From contig CAINLW010000064.1 in the NCBI GenBank assembly GCA_903850545.1, forward strand, positions 1-40,239: a stretch of 40,239 nucleotides of DNA. Reading direction: 5' to 3'. Below the pieces are notes generated by a model, which was given only the letters and a program-made list of their open reading frames with translations, was not told where the DNA came from and did no database searches. Positions 655-37,314 of this stretch are shown here, piece after piece (positions within the stretch are counted from its first letter, which is position 1; every line of letters starts with the position of its first letter). This DNA is from an uncultured bacterium. Lineage in GTDB: Bacteria > Patescibacteriota > Minisyncoccia > Phycocordibacterales > GWA1-40-21. The position numbers and the translations under genes are program-made.

Positions 655-768
655 GTCATTCCTGTGAAGACAGGAATCCAGGCCTGCCCCGTCAAATTGG
701 CTTTTTATCCCAACACCCCTTTTTTTTGTTTTAAGAATAGGTGTTGGGATTTATTTGACTGGGGTTTA
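655..768. repeat. Composite dispersed palindromic repeat (intergenic copy 1)
   Basis: The left part (655-682) is a small hairpin unit: ATTCCTG at 658-664 pairs with CAGGAAT at 671-677 and ends in TCCAGG. The right part is a nested inverted repeat: 687-697 pairs with 753-764 (CCCC..GTCAAAT against ATTTGAC.GGGG), and inside it ATCCCAACACC (707-717) pairs with GGTGTTGGGAT (740-750). The same composite architecture recurs at 2282-2368, and the left unit recurs at 5179, 5230 (inverted) and 5451. No transposase is linked, so it looks like a MITE-like or REP-like element. It may also act as a terminator for the permease gene. Confidence 0.8.
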
Positions 769-4612: not shown

Positions 4613-5971
4613 ATGAAAATTATTATTGTTGCAACCACACCCTTTTTTACAGAAAGAGGAACTCATATCAGGATACTCAATGAAGCGATTTCTGTTGCAA
4701 AAGCTGGACATTTTGTTGAAATTATTACTTATCCAATCGGTAAAAATCCAAAAGAATGTGTAGAGAATAATATAAAAATCACGAGAATCTCTAACGTTTT
4801 TCCATGGTATACAAAAACTTCAGCGGGTCCATCGTTTGCAAAAGTTTTTTTTGATATTGTTTTATCTTTCAAATTATTCTTTCGTGTTTTGAGTGAAAAA
4901 CCAGATATTCTTTATGCACACAATCATGAAGCAGTAATCGCATCCTTTTTAGTTCAGAAGATTCTTTTTTGGAGAAGAATTAGAACAGTTGGCGATTTTC
5001 ATGGGGGTCTCGTTTCTGAAATGATTATATATAAAGGAATAAAATACTCGGTAGTGAAGAAATTTTTTAGTTTGATTGAAGATGCTATTTATAAAATGCC
5101 AGATCAGTCGATTGCAAGTTCACGTCCACTAACTGAATATATATCAAAAGATATTTTGAATTACGAAACTCCCGAATTGTCATCCTCGCGAATGCGGGGA
5201 TCCAAGTTAATTAAGTTAATGCAACACAACCTGGATTCCCGCCGAAGCGAGAATGACATAAAAAATAGAAAAAAAGCATGCAGTGTATTTTATGATGCGC
5301 CGTCTATCCCATTTGTTTTTCATGATAAGAAAAAGATGCGAGAAAAGTATGCTGTTTCTCAGGAAGCTTTTGTTATTCTTTATACTGGAGGTTTTACAAA
5401 AGATAAAGGTATAGATGTCCTTTTGTCTCTTATTCGTGAATGTGTATTTTGTCATTCCTGCGTAGGCAGGAATCCAGGCTCTAATGCGTCTTTGCGCCGT
5501 GTCCGCCATAGCTTTAGCGAAGGTGGAAGTACGGAGCGACGTGGCAATCCAGGTTCAACAAATATATTTTGGATTATTGCCGGAGATCCGCTTGAAGCAT
5601 TACAAATTCCAGCCGATATCTCTTCTCATATTAAAATTGTAAGTCCTCTCGATCCAACAACTCTTGGTGAATTACTTTCTCTTGCTGACAGTGCTATTGA
5701 TCCGAAAGAACAAAACTCACTTCAGGCAAGCGGAAAAATAATTAATTATATGCAGTATGGGCTTCCAGTATTTTGTTTCGATAATGCAATTTCTCGTGAT
5801 TATTTTGGAGATGAATTAGCGGATAAATTAACAGGAAAAAATCTGGATTTACTACAAAAGAAAATATTGTATTTTTTAAAACATAAGGATGAATGTGTTA
5901 TTATGAAAGACACTATGCAAAACCGCGTGAAATTATTTTCATGGAATAATATTGTTGATATTCTAAAATAA
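4613..5971 (+). CDS. GT4-like glycosyltransferase carrying two in-frame repeat insertions
   Basis: 452 residues, GT-B fold. The N-terminal acceptor domain starts MKIIIVATTPFFTERGTHIR and includes an ILNEAISVAKAGH helix and a YAHNHEAVIA segment (101-110). The C-terminal donor domain begins near VILYTGGFTKDKGIDVLLSL (254-273) and has the E-x7-type region KEQNSLQASGKIINYMQYGLP (365-385). Residues about 189-215 are encoded by an inverted pair of repeat units (5179-5257), and residues about 280-314 by a second composite repeat (5451-5553). Both are rich in Arg, Ser and Gly, unlike the Lys/Ile-rich rest, and the second splits the donor domain between the first strand-helix unit and IFWIIAGDP. The frame stays open through both, so the enzyme may still be active. 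Shorter spacing between these motifs is usual in the family. Confidence 0.85.
   Translation: MKIIIVATTPFFTERGTHIRILNEAISVAKAGHFVEIITYPIGKNPKECVENNIKITRISNVFPWYTKTSAGPSFAKVFFDIVLSFKLFFRVLSEKPDILYAHNHEAVIASFLVQKILFWRRIRTVGDFHGGLVSEMIIYKGIKYSVVKKFFSLIEDAIYKMPDQSIASSRPLTEYISKDILNYETPELSSSRMRGSKLIKLMQHNLDSRRSENDIKNRKKACSVFYDAPSIPFVFHDKKKMREKYAVSQEAFVILYTGGFTKDKGIDVLLSLIRECVFCHSCVGRNPGSNASLRRVRHSFSEGGSTERRGNPGSTNIFWIIAGDPLEALQIPADISSHIKIVSPLDPTTLGELLSLADSAIDPKEQNSLQASGKIINYMQYGLPVFCFDNAISRDYFGDELADKLTGKNLDLLQKKILYFLKHKDECVIMKDTMQNRVKLFSWNNIVDILK
5179..5257. repeat. Inverted pair of palindromic repeat units inside a coding gene
   Basis: The left unit (5179-5206) starts GTCATCCTCGCGAATGCGGG and ends ATCCAAG; the right unit (5230-5257) is an inverted copy whose complement starts GTCATTCTCGCTTCGGCGGG and ends ATCCAGG. 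The pair forms one large hairpin with a spacer of about 23 bases. It is in frame within the GT4 gene and contributes peptide SSSRMRGSKLIKLMQHNLD and flanks. Base composition is more G+C-rich than the gene around it. Related units are at 655, 5451, 8532. Confidence 0.85.
5451..5553. repeat. Composite palindromic repeat inside a coding gene
   Basis: The first unit, 5451-5478, starts GTCATTCCTGCGTAGGCAGG. The second unit, 5486-5553, starts GCGTCTTTGCGCC, holds TCCGCCATAGCTTTAGCGAA with GGTGGA completing a hairpin, and ends GCAATCCAGG. The second unit is nearly identical to 6984-7047 in the next glycosyltransferase. It is translated here as CHSCVGRNPG and then SLRRVRHSFSEGGSTERR. Confidence 0.88.
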
Positions 5972-6011
5972 AAGATATTATTGTGGAAGTATGTTAAAAT
6001 TTATGTAGAGT

Positions 6012-6473
6012 ATGGAACAAAATAAACTAAAAGAAGTAATAGAAAAAGCAAAAATGATATATCCTCTACAAGGACAAATAAGATGTCCTTATTTTCATGA
6101 TGATGTCGTTTTAACTTCAGATGGTTTTAATCATTTACAGTTTAAAGGTAATAGAATGCCAAGAAACACCGATGAACAGATATTGAAGTTAACTTTATTA
6201 CCAAAAGCATTAGATATAATTAAACATACTGGTACACTTCAGGAATATAGAAAAGGAATTGAAAAAATCGGTAATAAAGGTGTTGATGGTTTTTATAGAA
6301 CAAAGAATGTTGAGTACTGGGGATTTCATGCAATTGTCGGGAAGGATTATTTGAGAAAAATAGTTGTTATTTTAAAAAGAGTGGGGGATGGAAAAATTGT
6401 TTTTTGGAGTGTAATGCCACATAGAAAGTTCAATAATCAAAGACTTTATGAAAATGGAATTGAAGATTTTTAG
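6012..6473 (+). CDS. Hypothetical 153-aa protein, possibly RelE/barnase-like nuclease fold
   Basis: Soluble, basic, no signal peptide. I do not recognise the family with certainty. The order of elements (a helical N-terminus, a strand with HLQFKG at about 37-42 followed by Arg, a LPKALDIIKHTGTLQEYRKG helix, then YWGFHAIVG, YLRKIVVILKRVGDGKIVFW and a final SVMPHRKF) resembles the compact beta-sheet nucleases grouped as PBECR (phage-associated barnase/EndoU/colicin E5-D/RelE-like), but the match is by eye only. It is monocistronic with TGT-TAAAAT at 5992-6000 about 11 bases before the ATG. No antitoxin-like partner is adjacent. An alternative is an uncharacterised nucleic-acid-binding protein. 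Confidence 0.55.
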   Translation: MEQNKLKEVIEKAKMIYPLQGQIRCPYFHDDVVLTSDGFNHLQFKGNRMPRNTDEQILKLTLLPKALDIIKHTGTLQEYRKGIEKIGNKGVDGFYRTKNVEYWGFHAIVGKDYLRKIVVILKRVGDGKIVFWSVMPHRKFNNQRLYENGIEDF

Positions 6474-6509
6474 AAACAAAAAAACCCTCATTAAGAGAGT
6501 TATTTTGTT

Positions 6510-6567
6510 ATGCCTGCCTTCAGCTTAGGTAATCCTTAGCCGAAAAGGAGCTTGCGCTCACAGGCAT
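6510..6567. repeat. Branched stem-loop repeat downstream of the 153-aa gene
   Basis: ATGCCTG (6510-6516) pairs with CAGGCAT (6561-6567). Inside are a near-palindrome GCTTAGG-TAAT-CCTTAGC and GAGC-TTGC-GCTC. The whole would fold into a cloverleaf-like shape, but there is no tRNA sequence signature. It probably is another structured intergenic repeat or the terminator of the upstream gene. Confidence 0.5.
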
Positions 6568-6643
6568 ACTCATATTATATACTAATAATATTTATGAAGC
6601 AAGTGGAAAAATTTTGAAATAGATAGTAATTTAATTAACGAGA

Positions 6644-7762
6644 ATGAACCATCAATATGAAATAGGAATAGTAATAGTAACATGGAATGGTCTCGCACAT
6701 CTTGAACGTCTTTTTCCATCTCTGTTTATGCAAGATACTGACAAAAAATATAAAATCGTAGTAGTGAATAATGGATCAACTGATGGCACAAAAGATTATA
6801 TTTTAGATTATCCAGAAATAGATTATATTGAGCTTTCCAAAAATGAGGGATTTGCTGAACCAAATAATATTGGTATTCGTCATTTATTCTCCAAATATCC
6901 TTCAATAGAGAAAATTGTTTTTTTGAATAATGATACTGTTGTACCAAAAACATTTATTTCGACATTATTGTCCGGTTTTGACTCGTCATTGCGCTGTGTC
7001 CGCCATAGCTTCAGCGAAGGTGGAAGGACGGAGCGTGGCAATCCAGGTTTAATTGCCACCGTTCAAACAAAAATAGTATCTTTCGATAATCCAAAAATTA
7101 TTGACAGTGTTGGAATTTTGGTTGACGAAAGTATGAGTGCTATCAACAAAGGCCAGGGAGAAACTGACATTGGACAATATAATGAGGCATGCGAAATTTT
7201 CGGTACCACAGCCAGTGCCATGATGATTTCCAAAGAAGCTCTTCAAGCAGTTGATCTTAGTAATGAAACGTATTTTGACCCTCTTTATTTTGCATATCAA
7301 GAAGATGTGGACCTAGCGTGGCGACTTCGACTTCTAGGATTTACATCGCAATATATTTCTGGAGAACCAGTTTTACACGTACACAGCGCAACAGGTCAGA
7401 GTTATTCCGCGTTCAAATCTTTCCATATTCATCGCAATACACTTTTTACAATAGTTAAAAATATGCCATTTTCTCTTGTATTTAAGGTTTTAGGATTATT
7501 TTGTATGCGATATATTCACCTTGTTTTAAGTGTTTTTAGAAAAAGAGGTCCTTCGTATGAGGTCTCGAAAAAAACTGGAATATTTGCTATGATGTGGAGT
7601 GTAGTTGTATCGTGGTTGTCTCTTCTTTGGTATGTGTCAGAATTGATTAAAAAAAGGTCAATTATACAAAAAAAGCGAAAAATATCTATAAATGATACAA
7701 AAGAAATTTTTCATAAGTTTAAAGCAAATAAACAAAAAATAATATATGGCACTCGGTCATGA
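6644..7762 (+). CDS. GT2 family glycosyltransferase (rhamnosyltransferase WbbL-like) with an in-frame repeat insertion
   Basis: 372 residues. GT-A motifs: IVIVTWNGLAHLERL (9-23), VVNNGSTDGT (40-49), LSKNEGFAEPNNIGIR (64-79), metal-binding LNNDTVV (94-100) and the catalytic-base region AYQEDVDLAWRLRLLGF (217-233), typical of WbbL/RfbN-type transferases. The C-terminal ~110 residues have hydrophobic segments (about 275-297 and 314-336) and a basic tail, as in membrane-associated members. Residues about 114-135 derive from a palindromic repeat (6984-7047) placed after the metal-binding motif, where other members have a short loop. The gene overlaps the wzm start by 17 bases, so it heads the export operon. 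With rmlA-D in the same window, dTDP-rhamnose is a plausible donor (inference). Confidence 0.9.
   Translation: MNHQYEIGIVIVTWNGLAHLERLFPSLFMQDTDKKYKIVVVNNGSTDGTKDYILDYPEIDYIELSKNEGFAEPNNIGIRHLFSKYPSIEKIVFLNNDTVVPKTFISTLLSGFDSSLRCVRHSFSEGGRTERGNPGLIATVQTKIVSFDNPKIIDSVGILVDESMSAINKGQGETDIGQYNEACEIFGTTASAMMISKEALQAVDLSNETYFDPLYFAYQEDVDLAWRLRLLGFTSQYISGEPVLHVHSATGQSYSAFKSFHIHRNTLFTIVKNMPFSLVFKVLGLFCMRYIHLVLSVFRKRGPSYEVSKKTGIFAMMWSVVVSWLSLLWYVSELIKKRSIIQKKRKISINDTKEIFHKFKANKQKIIYGTRS
6984..7047. repeat. Palindromic repeat inside the GT2 gene, twin of the 5486-5553 copy
   Basis: Starts CGTCATTGCGCTGTG, contains TCCGCCATAGCTTCAGCGAA with GGTGGA, and ends GCAATCCAGG. It differs from 5486-5553 by a few substitutions and a 3-base gap (ACG), so the reading frame is the same. 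It is translated as SLRCVRHSFSEGGRTERGNP, against SLRRVRHSFSEGGSTERR in the other gene. Confidence 0.9.
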
Positions 7763-8531: not shown

Positions 8532-8559
8532 GTCATTGCGAGGTACGAAGCAATCCAGG
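8532..8559. repeat. Short palindromic repeat unit between wzm and wzt
   Basis: GTCATTGCGAGGTACGAAGC followed by AATCCAGG; ATTGC (8535-8539) pairs with GCAAT (8550-8554). It is the compact form of the unit found in the two glycosyltransferase genes. Confidence 0.8.
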
Positions 8560-35992: not shown

Positions 35993-36000
35993 AAATCATT

Positions 36001-37314
36001 GTGATTAAAAAAATTGAAAAAAAAGTATACATCGGTATGTCGGGTGGAGTAGATTCTTCCGTATCAGCTTTGTTATTAAAAAAGAATGATTACGATGTTA
36101 CTGGAGTTTTTATTAAGGTATGGCAACCGGAATTTTTTGAATGCACTTGGCGACAAGACAGACTCGATGCAATGAGAGTTTGCGCTAAACTTGATATTCC
36201 ATTTATTACTTTAAATCTCGAGAGTGAATATAAAAAAGAAGTGGTAGATTATATGATTGAGGAATACAAGAGAGGAAGAACACCAAATCCTGATGTTATG
36301 TGTAATAAATATGTGAAATTTGGTGGTTTTTTTGATTGGGCAATAGAGCAAGGTGCCGATTATGTTGCTACGGGACACTATGCGCGCACATCGCGAGTCG
36401 AAAGTCGAAAGTCGAAAGTCGAAAGTAAAAATTTAAATATTATGAATAAACATTATGGTGTTAGCAATAATACCATAATGAATCAGCTTGTTGCGGGAAG
36501 TGATAAAAATAAAGACCAAACTTATTTTCTTTGGACACTTACACAAAAACAACTTTCAAAAACTCTTTTTCCAATAGGTGATCTAGACAAGCCTAAAGTC
36601 AGAAAATTAGCTGAAAAATACGTATTAAGCACTGCAGTTAAAAAAGACAGTCAAGGACTTTGTTTCATTGGGAAAATTGATATAAAAGATTTTCTTAGAA
36701 ATTATATTAAAGAAAAAAAGGGAAAGGTTTTGGATGAAAATGGGAATAAAATTGGAGAACACGATGGAGCTTTTTATCTAACCGTGGGGCAGAGACATGG
36801 CTTCAATATAACGCGGAACATACGCGGACAAGACGCGGAACATATGCGGAATAGTGTAGAAAAAAATGGAGGTCTTTCCTTGAGGAGGAGCGGAGCTACG
36901 GGAAAAGGTGAGTCCTCGGTTTTTTCTGAATGTAATCAAAAACAAAAAAAAGACATTGCCCCATATTATATTATTTCAAAAGATATTAAAAATAACACAA
37001 TCACTGTTTCTCATTCACCAAAAATAGCGGATGATGAATCGCGAATCGTGAAGTTGGAAAAAATAAATTGGACACTTGGTGAAGTTCCTGATTTATCAAA
37101 GAAATATTATGCAAGAATTCGTTACAGACAACCATTAGAAGAATGCAGGATAGTTGAAAGTTATAAAGTTATAAAATTGAAAGTTGAAAATAAAATAAAA
37201 GAAAATATAGAATATGAACTTCATTTTGAAAATCCTCAAAAAGCTATTACTTCTGGCCAGTCGGCTGTTATTTATGATGGGGAAGTTTGCTTGGGAGGAG
37301 GGATTATTAGTTGA
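36001..37314 (+). CDS. mnmA: tRNA-specific 2-thiouridylase MnmA with repeat-derived insertions
   Basis: About 437 residues from GTG 36001; ATG 35959 lies inside the upstream ABC gene, and the family start (short basic stretch, then VYIGMSGGVDSSVSA) fits the GTG. The PP-loop is MSGGVDSS (13-20), the catalytic cysteines are NPDVMC (Cys101) and DSQGLCFIG (Cys221), and GHYAR, KDQTYFLW and TVGQRHGFNI are present. MnmA thiolates U34 of Lys, Glu and Gln tRNAs. Three stretches are unlike homologues: 131-160 (between GHYAR and the KDQTYFL strand), about 270-319 (between GQRHGFNI and PYYIISKD) and about 384-402. Their DNA consists of tandem heptamers, 11-mers and palindromes. The length is well over the usual ~350-370. 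All catalytic residues remain, so it may still function. Confidence 0.92.
   Translation: MIKKIEKKVYIGMSGGVDSSVSALLLKKNDYDVTGVFIKVWQPEFFECTWRQDRLDAMRVCAKLDIPFITLNLESEYKKEVVDYMIEEYKRGRTPNPDVMCNKYVKFGGFFDWAIEQGADYVATGHYARTSRVESRKSKVESKNLNIMNKHYGVSNNTIMNQLVAGSDKNKDQTYFLWTLTQKQLSKTLFPIGDLDKPKVRKLAEKYVLSTAVKKDSQGLCFIGKIDIKDFLRNYIKEKKGKVLDENGNKIGEHDGAFYLTVGQRHGFNITRNIRGQDAEHMRNSVEKNGGLSLRRSGATGKGESSVFSECNQKQKKDIAPYYIISKDIKNNTITVSHSPKIADDESRIVKLEKINWTLGEVPDLSKKYYARIRYRQPLEECRIVESYKVIKLKVENKIKENIEYELHFENPQKAITSGQSAVIYDGEVCLGGGIIS
36397..36480. repeat. Heptamer tandem repeat plus inverted repeat inside mnmA
   Basis: Four perfect GTCGAAA heptamers (36397-36424) followed by CATTATGGT (36451-36459) pairing with ACCATAATG (36472-36480). 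Similar GTTGAAA/GTTATAAA runs occur at 37151-37195 in the same gene and at 37312-37341 after it. Confidence 0.85.
36811..36922. repeat. Four 11-bp tandem repeats and a hairpin inside mnmA
   Basis: ACGCGGAACAT, ACGCGGACAAG, ACGCGGAACAT and ATGCGGAATAG run in tandem from 36811 to 36854. A G+C-rich stem-loop-like stretch follows at about 36869-36920 (GGAGGTCTTTCC ... GGTGAGTCCTCGG). The reading frame is kept across both. Confidence 0.75.

Follow-up and report, generated by a model that had tools for sequence, protein, structure and literature searches.

The palindromic repeats translated in frame within two glycosyltransferase genes of the window (the whole 40,239-nucleotide stretch of DNA analysed, which is contig C64 of a 985 kb genome in 64 contigs, 97% complete) are very probably selfish REP insertions that have been tolerated: elements that spread through the genome, were largely purged from genes and survive where they fell in loops. 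The two glycosyltransferase genes and the REP copies in and around them are as follows.

4613-5971, + strand: GT4-type glycosyltransferase gene (452 aa), host of the REP blocks; Pfam Glyco_transf_4 and Glycos_transf_1, alignment with seven homologues
5179-5257, + strand: type A REP inverted pair in GT4, in frame at residues about 189-215; patterns, fold, absent from seven homologues
5451-5478, + strand: type A REP unit in GT4, in frame at residues about 280-289; exact type A pattern match, 8-bp stem and 4-nt loop
5487-5553, + strand: long type B REP unit in GT4 that contains an inner palindrome, in frame at residues about 292-314; repeat families D1/D5, genome hits
6644-7762, + strand: GT2 glycosyltransferase gene (372 aa) with one REP unit; Pfam Glycos_transf_2 (E 5.6e-16), model mean pLDDT 90.6
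6985-7047, + strand: long type B REP unit in GT2, residues about 114-135; twin of 5487-5553, absent from 31 homologues
655-682, + strand: free-standing type A REP; type A pattern and fold
2283-2306, + strand: degenerate free-standing type B REP; one-mismatch match to the type B 5' motif
8532-8559, + strand: free-standing short type B REP; pattern matches

The initial annotation had placed two repeat blocks in the GT4 gene and one in the GT2 gene, and all three lie where it put them and are open in frame; the second GT4 block (5451-5553) resolves into a type A unit and, after it, a long type B unit. It had also described the copies at 5486-5553 and 6984-7047 as near twins with a 3-base gap between them. 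This holds, the GT2 copy (6985-7047) being 92% identical to GT4 positions 5487-5538 over 52 nt with a 3-base in-frame gap downstream, and the twins translate to SLRRVRHSFSEGGSTERRGNPG and SLRCVRHSFSEGGRTERGNPG. Its free-standing relatives at 655, 2282 and 8532 are likewise real, the second (at 2283) being degenerate. Alignment showed neither block in the GT4 homologues (n = 7, best 41% identity), although these align on both sides of each; the GT2 segment was present in 0 of 31 homologues, the closest named of which are from Candidatus Moranbacteria, and here too the flanks join. In an AlphaFold model of GT2 built with homologues, residues 117-131 fall below a pLDDT of 50 and form the main disordered stretch, a loop with a helix (104-114) on one side and a strand (137-141) on the other, so that the insert has a loop position. 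Foldseek confirmed the GT-A fold of GT2 and nothing beyond. For GT4 alone AlphaFold gave a low-confidence model (pLDDT 35.8), which was set aside, and a GT4 search of the genome contigs gave no matches.

Type A units loosely follow TGTC-ATTCCTGC-GNAG-GCAGGAAT-CCAGG and fold (5451-5478 and 655-682) into an 8-bp stem starting with AT and closed by a 4-nt loop. The tag is TGTC in 48/48 copies, with T always before GTC; the loop is GAAG, GGAG or GTAG and the tail CCA or CTA. The type A pattern has 55 matches in the genome and its reversed counterpart 0, SAATCCAGG has 48 versus 0 for the backwards pattern, and RCAATCCAGG occurs three times in the window versus 0.10 expected; Rfam returned no match within the window. 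Type B reads GTC[A/T]TTGCGAG...GCAATCCAGG, with 40 exact genome matches to its 5' motif. Free copies often stand as inverted pairs of 65-105 bp, many clusters contain A+A- pairs 65-81 bp long, and the inner palindrome of the GT4 and GT2 twins occurs elsewhere only on contig C17, in part. Type B is presumably akin to CGTC-4 / RPE-4, to judge by the GTCATTGCGAG...GCAATCCAG layout and the existence of intragenic copies; RPE-4 has a 9-bp stem and a 5-nt loop. The type B copy at 8532-8559 folds with 5 bp only, and the GT4 and GT2 copies differ in their inner palindrome CCGCCATAGCTT-AGCGAAGG and length of 63-67 bp.

By sequence and fold, the elements are REPs of the CGTC superfamily, with type A in the CGTC-1/dRS3/RPE-6 class. 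In the defining paper, CGTC-1 has a CGTC or TGTC tag, an 8-bp stem, a 4-nt loop and a CCA tail (PMC3733652), and is equated with neisserial dRS3 and Rickettsia conorii RPE-6, as CGTC-4 is with RPE-4 (Di Nocera et al., 2013; PMC3733652). Type A is like CGTC-1 in its TGTC/CGTC tag, 8-bp stem beginning with A-T pairs, 4-nt loop and CCA tail, in the predominance of inverted (HH) dimers, and in being mostly intergenic with some intragenic in-frame copies; it differs in its stem, here mostly ATTCCTGC/GCAGGAAT, and in its Patescibacteria-like host, of which the sections of PMC3733652 consulted make no mention. The initial annotation had drawn a parallel with Rickettsia palindromic elements, and this is closer than claimed, since type A falls by structure in CGTC-1, which includes RPE-6, and some Rickettsia palindromes thus belong to one element class with it. 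Rickettsia palindromic elements (RPE-1 and others) are also tolerated in frame in unrelated proteins, truB included; RPE-1 is longer.

A census by genome pattern searches, with the sequence stretches around the matches, gave about 60 REP clusters; about nine are intragenic and all of these are open in frame, ORFs over REPs at L120, L358, L362 (minus strand), L365, L368, L369 and L394 having been left uncounted as spurious or uncertain. The intragenic share (about 9 of about 60) is far below the coding share of the genome (88%, assumed). The flagged cases, neighbours of REPs on one strand but in different frames, yielded no REP-broken gene: each proved to consist of separate genes. Two further hosts, universal genes elsewhere in the genome, serve as the best controls and allow the insertion to be compared with an empty site. 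uvrA carries 45 extra residues containing two REPs; 13 relatives lack them, among them a congener with 92.5% identity, in the DNA of which the empty site is visible, and no target-site duplication was seen at it. truB carries two REP pairs that are missing from 16 relatives, with empty sites in congeners.

The elements extend beyond this genome. Relatives sampled from the same phylum mostly have genomes of 0.4-1.4 Mb, which, with the Candidatus Moranbacteria homologues of GT2, makes Patescibacteria the most likely lineage. Of 146 genomes searched, 17 contain type A REPs, in numbers reaching 119. In-frame type A units were found in tgt (G003), in rsmE and holB (G004), in xthA (G007), in murB, holB and mnmA (G026), in a UvrD-type helicase gene (G100) and in surface proteins (G007, G026). 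The two holB units (L338, L370) come from different families and all but coincide in their position in the gene, which encodes DNA polymerase III delta prime. A surface-protein family in three genomes (L084, L347, L362) has several REPs in a serine/threonine-rich linker.

A third palindromic family, missed by the initial annotation, is also translated within the window.

36861-36929, + strand: in-frame copy of the third palindromic family in mnmA (35998-37314); also present in truB, uvrB and a lipase-like gene

Further copies lie at L093 5279-5355 (truB), L111 3008-3084 (uvrB) and L098 2150-2213. This family, AAAAACGGAGGTCTCACCTT...AAGGTGAGTCCTTGGTTTTTT, is read in the common frame KNGGL-L-RN-VTGKGES-VF in four genes. 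The mnmA product has about 45 aa at residues 273-317 versus 4 aa in solved MnmA. An 11-base ACGCGGACTTG-type unit, repeated in runs, is also translated in frame in mnmA (window 36810-36845) and uvrB (L111 2239-2280), the uvrB product having 26 residues there and solved UvrB 2.

How the in-frame copies are read and where they sit bears directly on their origin. Five of the six type A frames lack stops, and units occur in every one of these (6, 3, 5, 2 and 5), with none in the stop-bearing frame; natural indels occur within 3 residues of 6/7 tested insertion sites (P about 0.002), the exception being one TruB site, of the third repeat family, with no natural indel nearby. No peptide is shared across insertions, and both frames and sites differ between genomes. 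The small number of intragenic clusters, all open, together with the frame usage and the indel sites, points to random insertion followed by purging that left the tolerated loops; we infer this history, as detection by open frame is blind to insertions that have been lost. CGTC-superfamily REPs would have spread through the genome, probably moved in trans by a transposase (reportedly, CGTC REPs have none dedicated to them), and selection would have removed most intragenic insertions, out-of-frame copies among them. Survivors would combine a frame-keeping length, a stop-free frame and a loop already variable in length, so that the host protein is predicted to keep working with 10-45 extra residues. 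The initial annotation had offered two readings, selfish elements tolerated in surface loops or a route to new protein segments; the use of all stop-free frames and the natural indel sites favour the first, and the second fits less well.

Plain tolerance does not predict one feature of the data, the lean of the hosts towards repair and RNA modification. Replication/repair and RNA-modification classes make up 9/16 REP hosts versus 11/60 length-weighted random proteins (Fisher P 0.004), against a small background of 60 proteins drawn from two other genomes and the window, with classes assigned by hand and UvrD in both lists; RNA modification alone accounts for 4/16 versus 2/60 (P 0.016) and the DNA class alone for 5/16 versus 9/60 (P 0.13). 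The third repeat family, having come to light by way of truB, was excluded from this test. The same host classes, including uvrA, uvrB and truB, are reported for other phyla in PMC3733652, and their recurrence here is an independent repeat of the pattern stated by Di Nocera et al. It is nevertheless unlikely that the insertions were selected, with REPs tuning repair (uvrA, uvrB, xthA, uvrD, holB) and RNA-modification (truB, mnmA, tgt, rsmE) genes; reduced repair or a raised mutation rate through REPs in repair genes is a speculation of Di Nocera et al. (PMC3733652). Such selection would suit the class excess, the shared uvrA, uvrB and truB hosts of other phyla, the nearly identical holB site in two families and the extra repeats of mnmA in two genomes, but frames and sites vary by genome, the sites are those of natural indels, no peptide is shared, and the background is small and hand-classified. 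We regard as doubtful the broader proposition that independent phyla keep in-frame REPs preferentially in uvrA, uvrB, truB, mnmA and holB because the elements are favoured or targeted there.

The palindromes could instead act as RNA or DNA (as an mRNA hairpin, a pause or terminator, or a gyrase site) with the peptide as a by-product, a reading that we consider very improbable. The GT4 pair at 5179-5257 does have a strong predicted RNA fold (-35.5 kcal/mol, z -7.0, 0/200 shuffles as good), as do both truB pairs (z -10.7 at -45 kcal/mol and z -12.1 at -46 kcal/mol). Folding is, however, modest (z -1.7 to -2.5) for the long type B copies and for uvrA, where the copy is a direct tandem, and the property common to the sites is an open frame, not a strong hairpin. 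A reading of the host genes as pseudogenes or as artefacts of annotation is scarcely credible: GT4 and GT2 have no close orthologue among 148 relatives, but both frames run to full length and contain the expected Pfam domains, the GT2 motifs are conserved and its model is confident, uvrA and truB are single-copy in the genome, and the gap between the twins keeps the frame.

The translation of REPs inside genes is not new in itself. The initial annotation knew of no such elements for this lineage, and that part stands insofar as we found, in the literature searched, no paper on point on REPs in Patescibacteria or on the peptide VIPAKAGIQ, which is not proof of absence; intragenic translated REPs had, however, been published in 2013 for several other phyla, with uvrA, uvrB and truB among the hosts (PMC3733652). 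What is new is the Patescibacteria-like lineage, the glycosyltransferase hosts, and the recurrence in repair and RNA-modification genes. Translated REP palindromes are thereby extended to a reduced-genome lineage, and the question raised in 2013, why repair and tRNA-modification genes are so often hit, gains independent data. Where a sister species has the empty site, the cost of an insert is directly measurable. For annotation, what looks like a conserved motif in peptides such as VIPAKAGIQ, CHSREGGNP, LDSRLRGND and WIPAFAGMT can be a translated REP.

As for related systems, REPIN / GTAG REPs, which RAYTs mobilise, are likewise dispersed inverted pairs of short palindromes, and the genome has a RAYT-type gene and encodes two Y1-family proteins (C13, C23); the tag here is TGTC, not GTAG, and no transposase tied to the TGTC-tagged REPs was found, the RAYT-type gene on contig C13 carrying a different palindrome. 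That palindrome, CTTGGAAGCAAGGCTTCCAAG, stands on both flanks of the RAYT-type transposase gene, which itself contains a third, in-frame copy (L121 1634, 1862 and 2336). A long inverted repeat, CCCGTCAAATT ... TTTGACTGGGGTT, directly abuts REP copies at window positions 681-765 and 2298-2363, and recurs at other REP loci, L062 and L021 among them.
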